This document shows, piece by piece, positions 31,860-49,039 of a stretch of DNA of 64,000 bases; the stretch's first letter is position 1; each line of letters opens with the position of its first letter. This DNA is from Flavimarina sp. Hel_I_48. GTDB lineage: Bacteria > Bacteroidota > Bacteroidia > Flavobacteriales > Flavobacteriaceae. The stretch lies in the NCBI RefSeq assembly GCF_000733945.1, contig NZ_JPOL01000002.1, forward strand, positions 1,985,001 through 2,049,000, in the 5' to 3' direction. The position numbers and the translations under genes are program-made. The notes below the pieces were generated by a model. It searched no databases and was not told the origin of the DNA. It saw only the letters and a program-made list of their open reading frames with translations.

Positions 31860-31933
31860 TCCTCCTTAGCTCAGTTGGTTAGAGCATTTGACTGTTAATC
31901 AAAGGGTCCTTGGTTCGAGCCCAAGAGGGGGAG
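31860..31933 (+). tRNA. tRNA-Asn (GTT)
   Basis: Complete cloverleaf of 74 bases. Acceptor TCCTCCT pairs with AGGGGGA. The D arm is GCTCAGTTGGTTAGAGC. The anticodon stem TTTGA/TCAAA encloses CTGTTAA with anticodon GTT at 31894-31896. The T arm is CTTGG-TTCGAGC-CCAAG. CCA is not encoded. Its 3' part serves as an integration site for the island that follows. Confidence 0.96.
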
Positions 31934-31937
31934 CAAA
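31907..31937 (+). repeat. Left attachment repeat (attL) in the tRNA-Asn 3' end
   Basis: Thirty-one bases from TCCTTGGTTCGAGCC through AGGGGGAGCAAA recur at 37063-37093 with one mismatch (C to A). The left copy is inside the intact tRNA, as is usual for tyrosine-recombinase-type integration. Confidence 0.85.
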
Positions 31938-31939
31938 TT

Positions 31940-31973
31940 AAGCCTGTAAGCATTTAGTTTACAGGCTTTTTTG
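31940..31973 (+). terminator. Rho-independent terminator after tRNA-Asn
   Basis: AGCCTGTAA / TTTACAGGCT hairpin followed by a T run, immediately after the tRNA. A degenerate look-alike follows the right attachment repeat at about 37096-37126. Confidence 0.7.
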
Positions 31974-32271
31974 TTTTATAATATTATATGCAGTTTATAA
32001 GTACGGCTTAAGAAGTGATATATCTCTATTTTATATGAGTCTTCTGCATTCAAGCTAAATTACAATAGAAAGTCATTCATTATCATCAAAGAGTTTAAAA
32101 GAGCTAATTTTGATAGAGATGCCTAAGCAAGACTTGACAATCTATTGTATGTTATAAATATGAGTAAAATTAAGGGTGTTATTGGGGATGTATTAATAAA
32201 TAATTACAGAGTGATTTGATAGTCGCTCTTTTTTTGTTTAGGTTAGCAGGTTAATTATCTTTTCTTAAATT
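31974..32271. other. Island leader region with short ORF and terminator
   Basis: AT-rich 300-base stretch before the defence-like operon. It holds a 19-residue ORF (ATG at 32160, stop at 32219, MSKIKGVIGDVLINNYRVI) whose end runs into a terminator hairpin. TTGACA (32134) and TATAAA (32153) lie upstream of it but are spaced only 13 bases apart, so promoter status is doubtful. No larger gene is seen. Confidence 0.45.
32208..32235 (+). terminator. Terminator-like hairpin just upstream of the methyltransferase gene
   Basis: AGAGTGA pairs with TCGCTCT (one G-T pair) around an eight-base loop and is followed by a run of seven to nine T. It ends 36 bases before the methyltransferase start, a position suited to attenuation or to blocking read-through from the tRNA. 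Confidence 0.65.
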
Positions 32272-33102
32272 TTGAGCTCTATCACAAACAAAAATATTGT
32301 TGCTAAACCTTTCCTGCGCTGGACAGGTTCAAAGTCGTGGTTAGTGAAAGATGGATTAGATAAATTTATTCCTAAAACATTTAAAAATTATCATGAACCT
32401 TTTTTGGGGGGTGGATCAGTCTTTTTCAGTTTTGAAGATAATCGAGCTGCCTACCTTTATGATTTAAACGAAGAGCTTATTAATACGTATCAGCAAATTA
32501 AAGACAATGTTGATTTGGTTATTAATTCGCTTAAAAGATTGAAGAACTCTGAAGATGAATACTATAGGATACGTAGTGCTAAAACAACAACCCCTCATAC
32601 AAGTGCTGCACGATTTATTTATTTAAACAGAACTTCTTTTAATGGTATTTATAGAGTGAACAGCAAGGGCCTTTATAATGTTCCTTATGGTAGAAGGAAA
32701 AATGTAGATATAATAACAGATTCAAATTTAAAAGCAGTGAGCTCAAGATTAAAAAATGTAGAGCTAATGTTTTCAGACTTCGAAGAGGTTTTAACTAAAA
32801 GTAAAAGAGGGGATTTGGTTTTTTTAGACCCCCCTTATACTGTAGCTCACGAGAATAATGGTTTCATTGCATACAACCAAAAGCTTTTTTCTTGGTCAGA
32901 TCAAGAAAGGCTTGCTATGGTTGTCAAAAAGCTTTCTGATATGGGGTGTTATTTTATATTAACGAATGCATCACATCCATCAATAGTTCAAACGTATTCT
33001 GGTTTAGGGGAAATCTATAAAGTATCGAGACACTCAAAGGTTGGAGGTAGAAACAAAACTCGAGGAGATTTTAATGAACTTATTATTACAAATATTATTT
33101 AA
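32272..33102 (+). CDS. Dam-type (D12 class) adenine-N6 DNA methyltransferase
   Basis: A 276-residue enzyme. The S-adenosylmethionine motif PFLRWTGSK is at residues 13-21, EPFLGGGSVFF at about 42-52, and the catalytic motif IV DPPY at 186-189. The order and length match the Dam/DpnM alpha-class methyltransferases that methylate adenine in short palindromes; the target sequence cannot be read from the protein. The start codon is TTG at 32272, since no ATG lies in frame ahead of the SAM motif. The stop TAA overlaps the next ATG by one base. Base composition is clearly more AT-rich than the chromosome around it. It is probably the self-marking arm of the island's system. Confidence 0.9.
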   Translation: MSSITNKNIVAKPFLRWTGSKSWLVKDGLDKFIPKTFKNYHEPFLGGGSVFFSFEDNRAAYLYDLNEELINTYQQIKDNVDLVINSLKRLKNSEDEYYRIRSAKTTTPHTSAARFIYLNRTSFNGIYRVNSKGLYNVPYGRRKNVDIITDSNLKAVSSRLKNVELMFSDFEEVLTKSKRGDLVFLDPPYTVAHENNGFIAYNQKLFSWSDQERLAMVVKKLSDMGCYFILTNASHPSIVQTYSGLGEIYKVSRHSKVGGRNKTRGDFNELIITNII

Positions 33103-34295
33103 TGAGCGATTACAAGTTGAGTATTGCTGTTGTTAGTGACTTACATTGTCATTCTAGTCGTGCCTCATCACGTGATAATAACACTTATTTGCTTTCGGAT
33201 AAGCTTCGGTTACCAAAAAGTGACCACCCTGTAGAAGCTCTTTTGGAGCTTATAGATGATGAAGGTATTACTTCTGACTTGACTTTATGTCCTGGGGATT
33301 TTACAGACCAACATAATATTCAGGGTTTTTTAAGTGGATGGGGATTTGCCTTGGAGATTCATAATAAGCTCGATTCTGACGATATAGTTGCTACTCTAGG
33401 CAATCATGATGTAGATAGTAGAAACAATGATACACTTTTTAGTTTTACTACAGCACGGAGCATAGGTCTGGATTTTCCGATTAAGGAAGAAACAAATAGT
33501 GACGAGTTTTGGAGCAAAGGCTTTACTTTTTTAGAACGACAGAGTTATCAATTATTAGTAATAAATACTTGCCACTATCATCAAAATATAGACTCAGCTG
33601 TTAAAGGTCAAATGGAGTTAAGTCAAATTGAAAAAATTAAAAAATATCTAAACAAGAATAATACAGATAAAATTAAAATAGCCTGTTGCCATCATCACCC
33701 TGTGCAGCACGCTAGATTAGGTCTCGGGGAAGCAGACTTTGTAATGAATGGTGAAGAGTTAGTACGATTACTTGGTGATTATAATTATGACTTAATCATA
33801 CATGGTCATAAACATGACGCATTACTTAGAGAACATGTTACTGAGTCAGGAAAAAAAATAACCATTTTTGGATCTGGAAGTTTTTCATCTACTTCTAATA
33901 TGTTACTTACTAGTAAAAGAAACAGTTTTCATTTTTTAAATATTAACAAAAATGCGGGAGATTTAGCCGCAATGGGAACCATAAAAACTTGGACTTACTT
34001 ACCTCAAAAAGGTTGGAATTTTCTTGATGATCCTAGTGGATTTAGCAGGTTGACTGGTTTTGGGAATCAAAAAAGTCCAAAAGATTTAGCTAAGGAAATT
34101 TATGATCTTATATTAAACGATTTGAAAACAGAGTGGAAGGATCTATTATCTATTAAGGGAGAGCTTTGTTTTTTAAATCAGAATCAACTTGAGGAAGTAA
34201 TAATAGAGTTGAAAAATTTTAATGTGCTAGTTACTCCTGCCCTCCCAAGTCAGCCGACTCAAGTTTTCAATTTAAACAAAATAAATAATGTCTGA
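33102..34295 (+). CDS. Calcineurin-like metallophosphoesterase
   Basis: A 397-residue protein with all five metal-site motifs of the calcineurin-like superfamily: SDLHCH (Asp13, His15), GDFTD (Asp66), GNHD (100-103), HHHP (197-200) and GHKH (235-238). Members are phosphodiesterases, phosphatases or Mre11/SbcD-type nucleases. Residues beyond about 280 form a C-terminal region of unknown fold (KTWTYLPQKGWNFLDD and a helical tail). It overlaps the methyltransferase by one base and the following ATPase by eight, so it is translationally coupled to both. A nuclease or nucleotide-hydrolysing effector role is the inference; the substrate is unknown. Confidence 0.88.
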   Translation: MSDYKLSIAVVSDLHCHSSRASSRDNNTYLLSDKLRLPKSDHPVEALLELIDDEGITSDLTLCPGDFTDQHNIQGFLSGWGFALEIHNKLDSDDIVATLGNHDVDSRNNDTLFSFTTARSIGLDFPIKEETNSDEFWSKGFTFLERQSYQLLVINTCHYHQNIDSAVKGQMELSQIEKIKKYLNKNNTDKIKIACCHHHPVQHARLGLGEADFVMNGEELVRLLGDYNYDLIIHGHKHDALLREHVTESGKKITIFGSGSFSSTSNMLLTSKRNSFHFLNINKNAGDLAAMGTIKTWTYLPQKGWNFLDDPSGFSRLTGFGNQKSPKDLAKEIYDLILNDLKTEWKDLLSIKGELCFLNQNQLEEVIIELKNFNVLVTPALPSQPTQVFNLNKINNV

Positions 34296-36075
34296 ATTTT
34301 ACTCTTCATATAACGCTAGGCATTTAGAGCCAAAGGAAGTAGCAAAGACATTTATTTGGTCAAAAAATTACGATGATTTAATTCAAAATAATCATTCCGT
34401 AATTTTGGGAGCTAGAGGTTGTGGAAAAACTACCCTAATGAAAATGCTGACCCTGCCAGCGCTTTATGCCTGGGAAAATGAGAAAGCGAAATCACTAAAG
34501 TCAGGTTTTGGTTTTTATGCGGTTTATATTTCAACAGATATTTACTGGAATGTTAAGAACTTAGCTTATCTAAAACAACTTGAAAAATTCGGAAGCTTTT
34601 CAGATAGGATCTCAAGATTTTCAGTTACGAGTAGTATATTTTTAGCTATATGTGAAACTTTTAAGAATATTATTGAGTATGAACTTAGCTCAGAAGGGGA
34701 ACAAAAAGAAATAGAGCTATCTTTAGAATTAGCTAAAATTTGGAAGCTAGAAATTAAAATACCACAACTCGATTTTGTTAAAGAAGCGATAAATATTAGA
34801 ATTGACACATTTAATCAGTTTATTCAAAATGCGCTGTTTAATTATAATTCGGAAGAAGAAATACATTATGATAGTTTATTATTTTTAAACTTAAATTACT
34901 CTAGTTCAGCCAATTTAGCATTTGAAATTTTTGAAAGAATTTATTCCGTCAGCGGGAAGAAATGGGCATTATGTTTTGATGAGCTTGAACTAGCTCCCGG
35001 CTGGTTGCAGGAAGACCTATTTAGATCTCTTAGAAGCACAAATCAAAAATTACTTTTTAAGCTTAGTGCTAGTCCTATTTTATCTATTAAGGAGCAGGAG
35101 CTTAGTGCTACATCTGGAAATGATTTGTCTTTGATTAGTATGTGGGATGCTCCAGATAATAATAGTTTTGCACGAGAATTAATACTTAATGAGTTAAATA
35201 AGAAATTAGGGGATAATTACAGTTTAGAAGAATTTTTTGGAACTAACGATGTCTACAATAGATCAAATAAGGATACTTATCAAGAAAACAGTAGATTCAT
35301 AAATTTGATGAGCGAACTTGCTCAAAAAGATATTTCATTCAATAATTTTTTAAGAAAGAATAGTCTCAATCCTTCAAAACCAACTCCTATATCTTCTAGT
35401 CAAAAAGACACACTTCACAGGAAAGTAAAATCTATAGTTTACTTTAGGAATTATTATATTAAAAATGTTTTTCTAGATGAAGATATAGATCAGCTTAAAG
35501 TTAATTTGCGTCCCAGAAAAAGCGATACGCTTTATTCTGGAATCGAAGTACTTTGTAAAATATGTGATGGAAACCCAAGGTGGTTAAAAGGAATACTTAA
35601 TTCTTTATTGGGTGGTGAACTAAAAATGAAGCCTTCAGAAGAAATGCAGTCATTGGTATTGCATACTGTGGCAAAGAGGTTTATGAATGTTATATCAAAC
35701 ATCCCAATTGATAATTTTAGTGGTACTACATTAGAAACCCTTATTTATAAAATTGGTAATAAATTTCAAGACGAAATTTTAGGTCCTAAGTTTTTACTTG
35801 ATCCCAAAGGTACTTTTAGGGTAGATGAATCTGAGGTTGCTGTTCCAAAAGAGATAGTGAATTTATTGGAAAAAGCGGCTTATCAAGGAGCTATCATACT
35901 TGTAGACAATAATGAGGATGCATTTGATTTTAGTGTTAGAGGGAAACGTTTTAGGCTTACCTACTTGTTAGCTCCAATTTTTAAGCTACCTCTAAGGACT
36001 TTTAATGAACTCAAGCTCAGCGAATGTTTTGTCAAAAACAATCTTTCAGGAGACCAAATGTCTATTTTTGATTAA
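34288..36075 (+). CDS. Large P-loop ATPase (ORC/Cdc6- or STAND-like)
   Basis: A 595-residue protein. Walker A is GARGCGKTT (residues 41-49) and Walker B is ALCFDELELAP with Asp231-Glu232. A long insertion (about residues 80-220) lies between them, and SASP at about residue 257 may be a sensor 1 position. After about residue 380 a winged-helix or helical extension follows (GNPRWLKGILNSLL). The layout recalls the ORC-CDC6-type AAA+ proteins that occur in bacterial defence clusters; I cannot confirm the subfamily. It overlaps the phosphoesterase gene by eight bases. It may sense invading DNA and control the phosphoesterase. Confidence 0.8.
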   Translation: MSEFYSSYNARHLEPKEVAKTFIWSKNYDDLIQNNHSVILGARGCGKTTLMKMLTLPALYAWENEKAKSLKSGFGFYAVYISTDIYWNVKNLAYLKQLEKFGSFSDRISRFSVTSSIFLAICETFKNIIEYELSSEGEQKEIELSLELAKIWKLEIKIPQLDFVKEAINIRIDTFNQFIQNALFNYNSEEEIHYDSLLFLNLNYSSSANLAFEIFERIYSVSGKKWALCFDELELAPGWLQEDLFRSLRSTNQKLLFKLSASPILSIKEQELSATSGNDLSLISMWDAPDNNSFARELILNELNKKLGDNYSLEEFFGTNDVYNRSNKDTYQENSRFINLMSELAQKDISFNNFLRKNSLNPSKPTPISSSQKDTLHRKVKSIVYFRNYYIKNVFLDEDIDQLKVNLRPRKSDTLYSGIEVLCKICDGNPRWLKGILNSLLGGELKMKPSEEMQSLVLHTVAKRFMNVISNIPIDNFSGTTLETLIYKIGNKFQDEILGPKFLLDPKGTFRVDESEVAVPKEIVNLLEKAAYQGAIILVDNNEDAFDFSVRGKRFRLTYLLAPIFKLPLRTFNELKLSECFVKNNLSGDQMSIFD

Positions 36076-36083
36076 ACGAACCT

Positions 36084-36995
36084 ATGGAAATTGACTACGC
36101 ACATCAAATAGATTTTGAAGACTTAACCTCAATAAATTTTGACATTGTAATAATTGCCAAAAATCACGAGGCAAGATGGGATTATTTGGTCAATTCGTTG
36201 TCAAAGAGTTTAAAATTAGGGAATTCACGAAATATAATATTAAGTTATGACCAGAATGATAATTTTAAGAAAAAACATTTTGAAGTATATAGCCCTCATA
36301 GTGACAATATAAAAGATCTTATTAAAATTTTAGAAAATGAATTTTCTAAAGTTAATAAAAAAGAGATAAAGGTTTTAGTAGATTACTCTTGTATGACTAA
36401 AACCTGGTACTATACTATAATGCTGTTTATAAAGCAAAGAAATTTAAATTTTGAGGAAATCAGCGTGTTTTTTTCCTATACTCCATCGCAATTTTCAAAA
36501 CCAAAAAAACCTAAGCATAATTTAAAAATAGAACCACTTCCGGGTAAATATCGAATTCCTAATGATAAACCCAAAGCATTAATAGTTTGCTTGGGCTATG
36601 AAGAAAAGAAGGCAGAGGGTATAATCGACTATTTAGATCCAAAAGAGACTATAATTATATATTCCAAACCTGCAATTGACGAAAATTTCGTAGAGCAAAT
36701 TGAGAGTAGTAATAAATCTCTAATATCTAAATTTAAAAGTGTTAATACTTTTGACATGTCAAATTTAAAGTCAATTGAAGAAATATTACAGTCGTTATTT
36801 TTAACACTTAATAAAGATTTTAGTGTAATTATAGCTCCTTTAGGACCAAAGCCCTTTACATTTGTTGCTATGTTATTGTCTTTGAAGTATGAAAATATTG
36901 ATATTTGGAGAGTTAGCTCTGGTAGCAATATAAATATTTACAAAAGAAAACCTATAGAAAATACGTTTATAATATCAAAAGTAGTTTTTAATTAA
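36084..36995 (+). CDS. Two-lobed Rossmann-like protein of unknown family
   Basis: A 303-residue protein that I do not recognise with confidence. It appears to contain two similar alpha/beta lobes. Lobe one opens FDIVIIAKNHEARWDYL (Glu29, Arg31) and lobe two opens PKALIVCLGYEEKKAEGI (Glu173, Lys176). Both show a hydrophobic strand, then a small-residue/aromatic-Glu-basic turn. VDYSCMTKTW (99-108) ends a strand in the way CARF-like ligand sensors do, and IIAPLGPKPFTF (249-260) may be the equivalent in lobe two. A ligand-binding or signalling role is possible. It follows the ATPase stop by eight bases and is the last gene of the operon. Confidence 0.7.
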   Translation: MEIDYAHQIDFEDLTSINFDIVIIAKNHEARWDYLVNSLSKSLKLGNSRNIILSYDQNDNFKKKHFEVYSPHSDNIKDLIKILENEFSKVNKKEIKVLVDYSCMTKTWYYTIMLFIKQRNLNFEEISVFFSYTPSQFSKPKKPKHNLKIEPLPGKYRIPNDKPKALIVCLGYEEKKAEGIIDYLDPKETIIIYSKPAIDENFVEQIESSNKSLISKFKSVNTFDMSNLKSIEEILQSLFLTLNKDFSVIIAPLGPKPFTFVAMLLSLKYENIDIWRVSSGSNINIYKRKPIENTFIISKVVFN

Positions 36996-37062
36996 AAGAT
37001 TTACAACTCGGTTGTTTAAAATTTGACAAATTTATAAAGGCTTAAATATAAACGATATAAAC
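36996..37062. other. Island right end, non-coding
   Basis: Sixty-seven AT-rich bases between the last operon gene and the right attachment repeat. No terminator hairpin or integrase remnant is seen. Confidence 0.5.
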
Positions 37063-37093
37063 TCCTTGGTTCGAGCCAAAGAGGGGGAGCAAA
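37063..37093 (+). repeat. Right attachment repeat (attR), truncated tRNA-Asn 3' end
   Basis: Matches 30 of 31 bases of 31907-31937 in direct orientation. The single change falls in the T stem, so this copy is not a functional tRNA part. It defines a 5156-base island. Confidence 0.85.
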
Positions 37094-37110
37094 GTAAGTC
37101 TAATCTTTAA

Positions 37111-37265
37111 TTAGGTTGGGCTTTTTTGTTTTAATAAATATATCTTATCTGTGTACTCACTAGTAGTACGAAACATTATTTTAATTCTACCGAGTGGATC
37201 ATGTTGCTTCCAAATATGACCATAATTAAGTACGCCAAACACACGGTTTTCATTTTCTAAAAACA
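37111..37265 (-). pseudogene. Possible gene remnant, unidentified
   Basis: A minus-strand open stretch of about 50 codons reads like protein (RVFGVLNYGHIWKQHDPLG, then IKIMFRTTSEYTDKIYLL) and ends with a stop at 37111. Its 5' part is replaced by the repeat copy at 37272-37378, so it has no start of its own. It could be the tail of a gene broken by the repeat, or chance. No family is recognised. Confidence 0.3.
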
Positions 37266-48416: not shown

Positions 48417-48547
48417 GGCGGTTTTTCATCAAAAACTGCACGAATTATGCCAGTTCCTGGCTAAAATTAGGCGAATTAGGAGCCTTTTTTACCGGTTTTA
48501 ACGATTTGTTGACAGCCATTATAGTGCGAACCAGGTTATTTTTAAAC

Positions 48548-49039
48548 ATGGCAAAAGAATATGATGAAAAACCTATAAAAGTCCCGCGCTTCAACGAAGC
48601 GGGTGGTTTCTACACCACACCGCGGCGCTCTAAACTGATGAGCAAAATAAAGGGCAAAAATACAAAGCCAGAGTTACAACTGCGAAAGGCGCTGTGGGCG
48701 GCAGGTTTTCGGTATCGTGTGAACAGTAAATATTTGATCGGTAAACCGGATATTTCGATCAAAAAATACAAGACTGCAATTTTTATTGATGGGGAATTTT
48801 GGCATGGCTACGACTGGGAGAATAAAAAATTGAAGATCAAAAGCAACCGGGATTTCTGGATCCCAAAAATTGAACGCAACATGCAACGCGACCGGGAGGT
48901 CAATGCAAAACTTGAGGAAATGGGCTACACTGTTTTTAGATTTTGGGCTAAAGATTTAAAAGATGATCTTGAAGCCTGCGTCAATCAGGTCATTACACAT
49001 TTTGAGAAAAGCACCAGGCTTGTAAACGGTACAAAGTAG
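48548..49039 (+). CDS. vsr: Very-short-patch-repair-like endonuclease (Vsr family)
   Basis: A 163-residue nuclease. The start at 48548 (MAKEYDEKPIKVPRF) is chosen because the family core begins at TPRRSKLMSKIKGKNTKPEL. The longer frame adds 14 unlikely residues. Catalytic-site features are GKPDISIKKYKTAIFIDGEFWHGYDWE (Asp, His) with a C-terminal GYTVFRFWAKDL. Vsr nicks T-G mismatches made by deamination of 5-methylcytosine and normally sits beside a cytosine methyltransferase. None is adjacent here, so it is orphan. Confidence 0.82.
   Translation: MAKEYDEKPIKVPRFNEAGGFYTTPRRSKLMSKIKGKNTKPELQLRKALWAAGFRYRVNSKYLIGKPDISIKKYKTAIFIDGEFWHGYDWENKKLKIKSNRDFWIPKIERNMQRDREVNAKLEEMGYTVFRFWAKDLKDDLEACVNQVITHFEKSTRLVNGTK

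Follow-up and report, generated by a model that had tools for sequence, protein, structure and literature searches.

What is the function of a compact operon that encodes a DNA methyltransferase (MTase), a metallophosphoesterase, a P-loop ATPase and a nucleotide-sensor-like protein, and that stands alone in an island at a tRNA gene? The question is raised by an island of Flavimarina sp. Hel_I_48 (Flavobacteriaceae), located in a stretch of 64,000 nucleotides (nt) of contig NZ_JPOL01000002.1, positions 1,985,001 to 2,049,000, which we call the window. Its four genes lie on the same strand with junctions of -1, -8 and +8 nt (Table 1). A preliminary description of the window had placed a compact operon of four genes with these junctions in a tRNA-Asn island, and the open reading frames (ORFs), the tRNA predicted by ARAGORN and the junctions agree with it. 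Judged from sequences and models, anti-phage defence is the best inference for the operon. We tentatively propose, with a confidence a little short of even, that it is a mobile, methylation-gated immune operon composed of a marking MTase, an ATPase switch, a phosphoesterase effector and a CARF sensor.

Table 1. Features of the island, in window coordinates
Feature	Position	Strand	Basis or remark
Gene 1, Dam/D12-class N6-adenine DNA methyltransferase, TTG start	32272..33102	+	PF02086 1.1e-50, TIGR00571 2.8e-67
Gene 2, calcineurin-like metallophosphoesterase with C-terminal winged helix-turn-helix (wHTH; PF24408)	33102..34295	+	PF00149 9.6e-14, PF24408 2.7e-09
Gene 3, ORC-CDC6-like (STAND-class) P-loop ATPase	34288..36075	+	PF24389 1.6e-110
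Gene 4, tandem-CARF / SAVED-like protein (CARF6), no fused effector	36084..36995	+	PADLOC CARF6 4.5e-101
tRNA-Asn (GTT), integration site	31860..31934	+	ARAGORN; 3' end repeated at 37063
Left attachment-like direct repeat = tRNA 3' end	31907..31945	+	Repeat family D2
Right attachment-like direct repeat	37063..37101	+	Empty site in congener G564
Terminator-like hairpin with T-run, island start to gene 1	32208..32229	+	Possible leader control

The families of genes 1 and 3 are supported by both profiles and motifs. Gene 1 is a member of the Dam family: it scores 227 bits against TIGR00571 (cut-off 115), and the catalytic DPPY is present in 17 of the 17 operon MTases, which also keep the hairpin NG..R......NVP. 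Its closest solved structure is DpnM (2dpm, 1.1e-56). Gene 3 is a member of PF24389, with 371 bits against a gathering cut-off of 27 and with Walker A and B motifs. The Walker A sequence GxRGCxKTT is invariant, as are FDELE and GNPR in 15 loci. A search of PDB sequences with gene 3 returned nothing at E<=0.1. Across 196 genomes of the order, PF24389 matched 16 at E<=0.001; 7 were above the cut-off and 2 span the whole model.

In gene 2, the metallophosphoesterase residues DxH, GD, GNHD, HHxP and GHxH are invariant across 15 loci. Its structure model (predicted local distance difference test, pLDDT, 81.9) is nearest in fold to small-molecule phosphodiesterases, cyclic-nucleotide ones included. 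The nearest folds are Lmo2642 (Z 22.0), Rv0805 (21.5), GpdQ (21.0) and SMPDL3A (20.6), and we take Lmo2642 and Rv0805, from their substrates, to be phosphodiesterases. The top fold row, 9a6c, is an integrative model and was set aside. Among PDB sequences, gene 2 matched one nucleotidase, 3ivd (1.2e-4), and no endonuclease profile matched genes 2-4. The chief rival of our proposal is a restriction-like role, in which the ORC/Cdc6-like ATPase would load the phosphoesterase, as a DNA nuclease of the Mre11/SbcD type, at unmethylated sites, the CARF protein only tuning its action. We consider such a role rather unlikely.

The preliminary description assigned the fourth protein to no known family. 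Gene 4 is a CARF6 / SAVED-like protein, both by its profile match and by its CARF/SAVED fold. Fold comparison gave two CARF lobes in a SAVED-like arrangement; the CARF rows from Foldseek cover about one lobe, with template modelling (TM) scores of 0.28-0.34. The first five Foldseek rows, a fatty-acid synthase and KCC/NKCC transporters, had TM (query) values of at most 0.25 and root-mean-square deviations above 16 and were set aside. Conserved loops occupy the predicted ligand positions: 23 of the 60 invariant residues are among the 35 that surround the ends of strands 1 and 4 in the two lobes (p 2e-10, for a loop set picked after inspecting the alignment). A profile search of PDB sequences with gene 4 returned only a helicase, at E 0.15.

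The next step of the argument is whether the four genes belong together. Scanning genome contigs with gene 4 as a single sequence gave nothing; the scan with a gene-4 alignment succeeded and found 18 genome loci. Of these, 12 are complete and have a close gene 4 (L020-L031), and all 12 carry the four genes in the same order. In L032-L036, gene 4 is more distant, genes 1-3 are not recognisable and apparent metabolic genes adjoin, and L037 is cut by a contig end. Genome G139 (L002) has the same gene order with identities equal to those of L028 and was left out of the count. Across 17 four-gene loci, and for the start codons chosen, the junctions lie between -23 and +13 nt. The recurrence of the four-gene order exceeds chance. 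Among homologues listed, 39 contig sizes are common to 120 homologues of gene 4 (of 215) and 119 of 120 homologues of gene 2 (of 246), and 27 of the 67 listed gene-4 homologues on contigs of at least 8 kb share their contig size with a gene-2 homologue. These shared sizes are consistent with co-location.

The operon was also found in mobile settings. In genome G471 (L043), the full set of four genes is neighboured by a serine recombinase and a MobA-type relaxase. Gene 3 is present on five of 72,556 plasmid records, and two other ATPase queries returned the same five. Dam, metallophosphoesterase, ATPase and CARF6 follow in this order on three of the four proteobacterial plasmids inspected, namely those of Cupriavidus, Methylobacterium and one of two S. 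meliloti records. Whether the four genes stay together elsewhere, the check put forward in the preliminary description, is answered by the close loci, by L043 and by these plasmids. On a Pseudoalteromonas plasmid, a 614-residue protein (P0121; L051 4886-6730) takes the Dam position upstream of genes 2-4; it had no Pfam match and no PADLOC match, and its C-terminal stretch looks PD-(D/E)XK-like to us. In E. coli no copy was found by blastn with the Pseudoalteromonas DNA, a weak test. On the Methylobacterium plasmid (L049 11481-14953), the operon has next to it another metallophosphoesterase gene, paired with one for a CHAT-domain protein.

In the window, an insertion of 5.16 kb sits at tRNA-Asn, bounded by 39-nt direct repeats that are identical at 36 of 39 positions; the boundaries proposed earlier, 31907 and 37093, correspond to these repeats. 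The suggestion that an AT-rich island had arrived from elsewhere agrees with its GC content (0.311 vs. 0.423 and 0.405 in the left and right flanks) and with an empty site in the congener G564. There, the 3' end of tRNA-Asn joins directly to a match of window positions 37063-37131 (92.8% over 69 nt, in an assembly that is 81% complete), and about 1.5 kb of sequence peculiar to G564 lies further to the right. All 13 genomes of the genus, the window's own included, have the tRNA end. Three have a second copy of it: that of the window, G557 (at a distance of 13.2 kb) and G559 (at 51.5 kb). Because the elements of G557 and G559 at this site open with integrase-like proteins (403 and 409 residues, 51% mutually identical, and of the tyrosine-recombinase type as we judge from sequence), the tRNA-Asn site is an integration hotspot of the genus. 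These elements (L078 and L079/L080), both integrase-bearing, measure about 13 kb in G557 and 51 kb in G559, and that of G559 has phage-tail-like genes by sequence. Between the repeats of our island there is no ORF of at least 100 residues other than the four genes, only two overlapping antisense ORFs of 80 and 99 residues, and tblastn with the two integrase-like proteins of the congeners gave no match at E<=1; the island is therefore cargo-only or trans-mobilised. The four genes are one conserved mobile unit, seen in a tRNA insertion, on plasmids and with a recombinase/relaxase element, and the operon is small enough to move whole as a 5 kb piece.

This distribution has to be weighed against a housekeeping or mobile-element replication function, or a set of unrelated neighbours. 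ORC/Cdc6-like ATPases also serve as replication initiators, which would favour a replication role, but the occurrence is patchy: in a sample of 395 Bacteroidota genomes, gene 4 was found in 4, one match being weak and partial (that of G292, where the operon is absent), and gene 3 in 3 (E<=1e-8). Moreover, the operon is missing from the same site in G564, and the same gene order occurs in two phyla. We regard these explanations as very unlikely. The distant CARF6-like genes may be a different matter. They stand alone in Bacteroidales-type genomes (near 8001 in L032, L033, L035 and L036; at 3445-4389 in L034), and the gene that follows in L033-L036 looks to us like a dihydrolipoamide acyltransferase, those that precede in L032, L033 and L035 like biotin carboxylase. 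Such lone genes beside apparent metabolic genes hint at a housekeeping branch.

The MTase is the exchangeable part of the unit. In L029 it is divergent, with 35% identity to the window as compared to 42-44% for genes 2-4 of that locus and 56-63% for the MTase in the 11 other close loci. In G318 (L042), which has genes 2-4, the Dam gene lies outside the operon, 3 kb away on the opposite strand and beside a DUF6996/6997 gene, and in L051 the MTase is replaced. An MTase that is swapped, external or replaced fits an exchangeable marking module. Pairwise identities over the 17 loci, uncorrected for host kinship, correlate with r of 0.973 for ATPase and CARF protein, 0.916 for MTase and ATPase (0.952 without L029), 0.842 for MTase and CARF protein, 0.795 for MTase and phosphoesterase, and 0.885 for phosphoesterase with ATPase and with CARF protein. 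The Dam-family MTase and DUF6996/DUF6997 gene of L042 (2-1682) are possibly a separate restriction-modification pair.

The behaviour of the MTase also bears on an addiction module, in which its loss would let genes 2-4 harm the cell and the operon would mainly stabilise its carrier island or plasmid. An MTase placed first in the operon, a plasmid location and an island without a recognised integrase are all in line with such a module. The divergent L042, however, keeps genes 2-4 with no MTase in the operon, though its Dam gene is 3 kb away, and we consider addiction even less probable than the counter-defence role discussed below.

We scanned four carrier genomes (G000, G139, G318 and G471) and 14 control genomes for possible partners. 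As to cyclases, SMODS (PF18144) and Csm1-type Cas10 (TIGR02578) were the families searched, and both were found in 0 of the 4 carriers; as to endonucleases, DpnII and MutH were searched, again with 0 of 4 for each. Among the controls, SMODS matched 3, Csm1-type Cas10 7, DpnII 1 and MutH 1. The operon MTase is the only Dam-family match in G000, G139 and G471; G318 has three, two of them above the cut-off, one being the gene 3 kb from genes 2-4. None of the four operon proteins has a CD-NTase or Cas10 cyclase profile. The earlier statement that restriction endonuclease, helicase and BREX genes are missing from the island stands: none of the island's proteins matched a nuclease or helicase profile, and no Pgl or Brx model is among the PADLOC matches listed. 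Classical restriction-modification with a remote endonuclease finds no support in the DpnII and MutH results, these two families being the ones searched in the carriers.

The same scans inform another reading, in which the operon would be counter-defence cargo: the MTase would shield incoming DNA from restriction, and the phosphoesterase and a ring-nuclease-like tandem-CARF protein would destroy the cyclic-oligonucleotide alarms of the host. The plasmid and mobile-island settings, the phosphodiesterase fold of gene 2, an operon with no cyclase of its own and, among the fold matches of gene 4, a viral SAVED protein with ring-nuclease activity according to its title (9r8s) are compatible with this. 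But neither the search of 50,697 phage records with gene 3 nor that of viral contigs with gene 4 gave a match, the genes are strictly coupled to a large ATPase, and SMODS and Csm1-type Cas10, the possible targets, are both missing from the tested carriers. Counter-defence therefore seems improbable to us. That the operon is a phage gene set was rejected on the same phage and viral searches.

Genes around the operon were compared as well. In L020-L031, the flanks of the operon, taken to a distance of about 4.5 kb, encode 84 proteins of at least 110 residues (shorter ones and those with masked letters were dropped), of which 83 were scanned, a 1640-residue protein being omitted. They matched 33 PADLOC models at 1e-5, including AbiEi, AbiEii, PD-T4-7 and TIR-like among the 25 models listed, vs. 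2 models for 38 other proteins of the window. These numbers count models rather than distinct flanking proteins and give weak support to a defence setting.

We return to the immune operon proposed above. Its set of parts points to an exchangeable self-marking module, gene 1, and a core formed by genes 2-4 with switch, phosphodiesterase and nucleotide sensor. In this model, the Dam-type enzyme would mark host adenines, probably in GATC, as self. The ORC/Cdc6-STAND ATPase would act as a switch driven by nucleoside triphosphates, engaging DNA together with the wHTH of gene 2 and firing when invader DNA is unmarked or replicates abnormally. As the effector, the phosphoesterase would alter a pool of nucleotides. 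The tandem-CARF protein, a nucleotide sensor, would read this pool or limit it, and would license the ATPase and phosphoesterase or shut them off. Since no recognised cyclase is encoded, the ligand would have to be supplied by the phosphoesterase or by the nucleotide metabolism of host or phage. A more specific version, in which the switch reads DNA methylation status and relays it as a nucleotide signal that the phosphoesterase makes or removes, with no classical cyclase, and that the CARF protein reads, is possible though somewhat doubtful. Most of what is understood about CARF and SAVED sensors concerns messages that Cas10 or CD-NTases synthesise. A sensor fold joined to a phosphodiesterase and a DNA methylase, with no recognised synthase, raises the questions of the source of its ligand and of whether a nucleotide alarm can be fed by DNA marking.

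Three smaller features of the window are recorded here. A 19-codon frame (ATG at 32160 to the TGA ending at 32219) overlaps the hairpin just 5' of gene 1 in an attenuator-like manner. A conserved upstream attenuator was rejected: none of the 16 other loci has a hairpin in the 100 nt that precede gene 1, and the sole other hairpin within 400 nt is that of L043, 202-230 nt away. GATC avoidance in the island was likewise rejected (13 found vs. 13.2 expected by a Markov count). Among the 38 other window proteins there was a match to Vsr, a type II nicking endonuclease (1.4e-17), probably from the ORF at 48506-49039.

How does the operon compare with known systems? It had been called a candidate undescribed system, which may be right: no PADLOC or NCBIfam model returned names a system of these four genes, but Pfam and PADLOC already model its parts. 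The component families are catalogued; the four-gene assembly is conserved and, as far as we could see, unnamed. Our literature search found no description of it, surveys likely to mention such families being outside the reach of that search, and a prior computational description is possible. PADLOC CARF6, which gene 4 matches, is a protein model only, and the PADLOC matches returned for genes 1-3 belong to other systems or to none. With type II restriction-modification (DpnII/Dam) the operon shares a Dam-family MTase, and it differs in the missing endonuclease profile and in the DpnII and MutH counts given above.

The preliminary description also saw a likeness to bacteriophage exclusion (BREX). 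Adenine methylation, a hydrolase and an ATPase of the ORC/Cdc6-STAND class are indeed shared. The operon MTase and phosphoesterase belong to families other than PglX and PglZ, and the operon, of about 5 kb, has a CARF-type sensor. BREX membership (PglX-type MTase, PglZ, BrxC/PglY) was rejected, no Brx or Pgl model being among the PADLOC matches listed (25 of 26 for gene 1). BrxB, BrxC, BrxD and BrxF are assigned to the ORC/Cdc6-STAND ATPase class (PMC12839542).

The closest parallels for genes 2 and 3 are DS-8 and DS-9. Metallophosphatase residues of both systems are needed for phage defence, and the phosphatase domain of DS-8, SMPDL3A-like, is joined to a NACHT NTPase, with protection abolished by mutating either part (PMC13092281). 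The SMPDL3A-type metallophosphatase is thus a shared feature, and with DS-8 an NTPase as well. Unlike our operon, DS-8 is a single protein, and the partner in DS-9 is a HAD phosphatase; gene 2 matches NCBIfam DS9_1 at 1.5e-09 with 37.3 bits, far under the cut-off of 420, and CARF and SAVED are absent from the main text of the report (PMC13092281). For gene 4, the parallels are the CARF/SAVED effectors of type III CRISPR and of cyclic-oligonucleotide-based antiphage signalling (CBASS), such as Can2, Csm6, Csa3, Cap5 and CalpL, with which it shares two CARF lobes in a SAVED-like arrangement and conserved loops at ligand positions. It differs from them in having no fused effector and in residing, in the four carriers, with neither SMODS nor Csm1-type Cas10 found. 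If the more specific version of our proposal is true, in which methylation status becomes a nucleotide signal, the operon would follow a logic different from both restriction and CBASS/type III signalling, a third one, and its marking module would be exchangeable.

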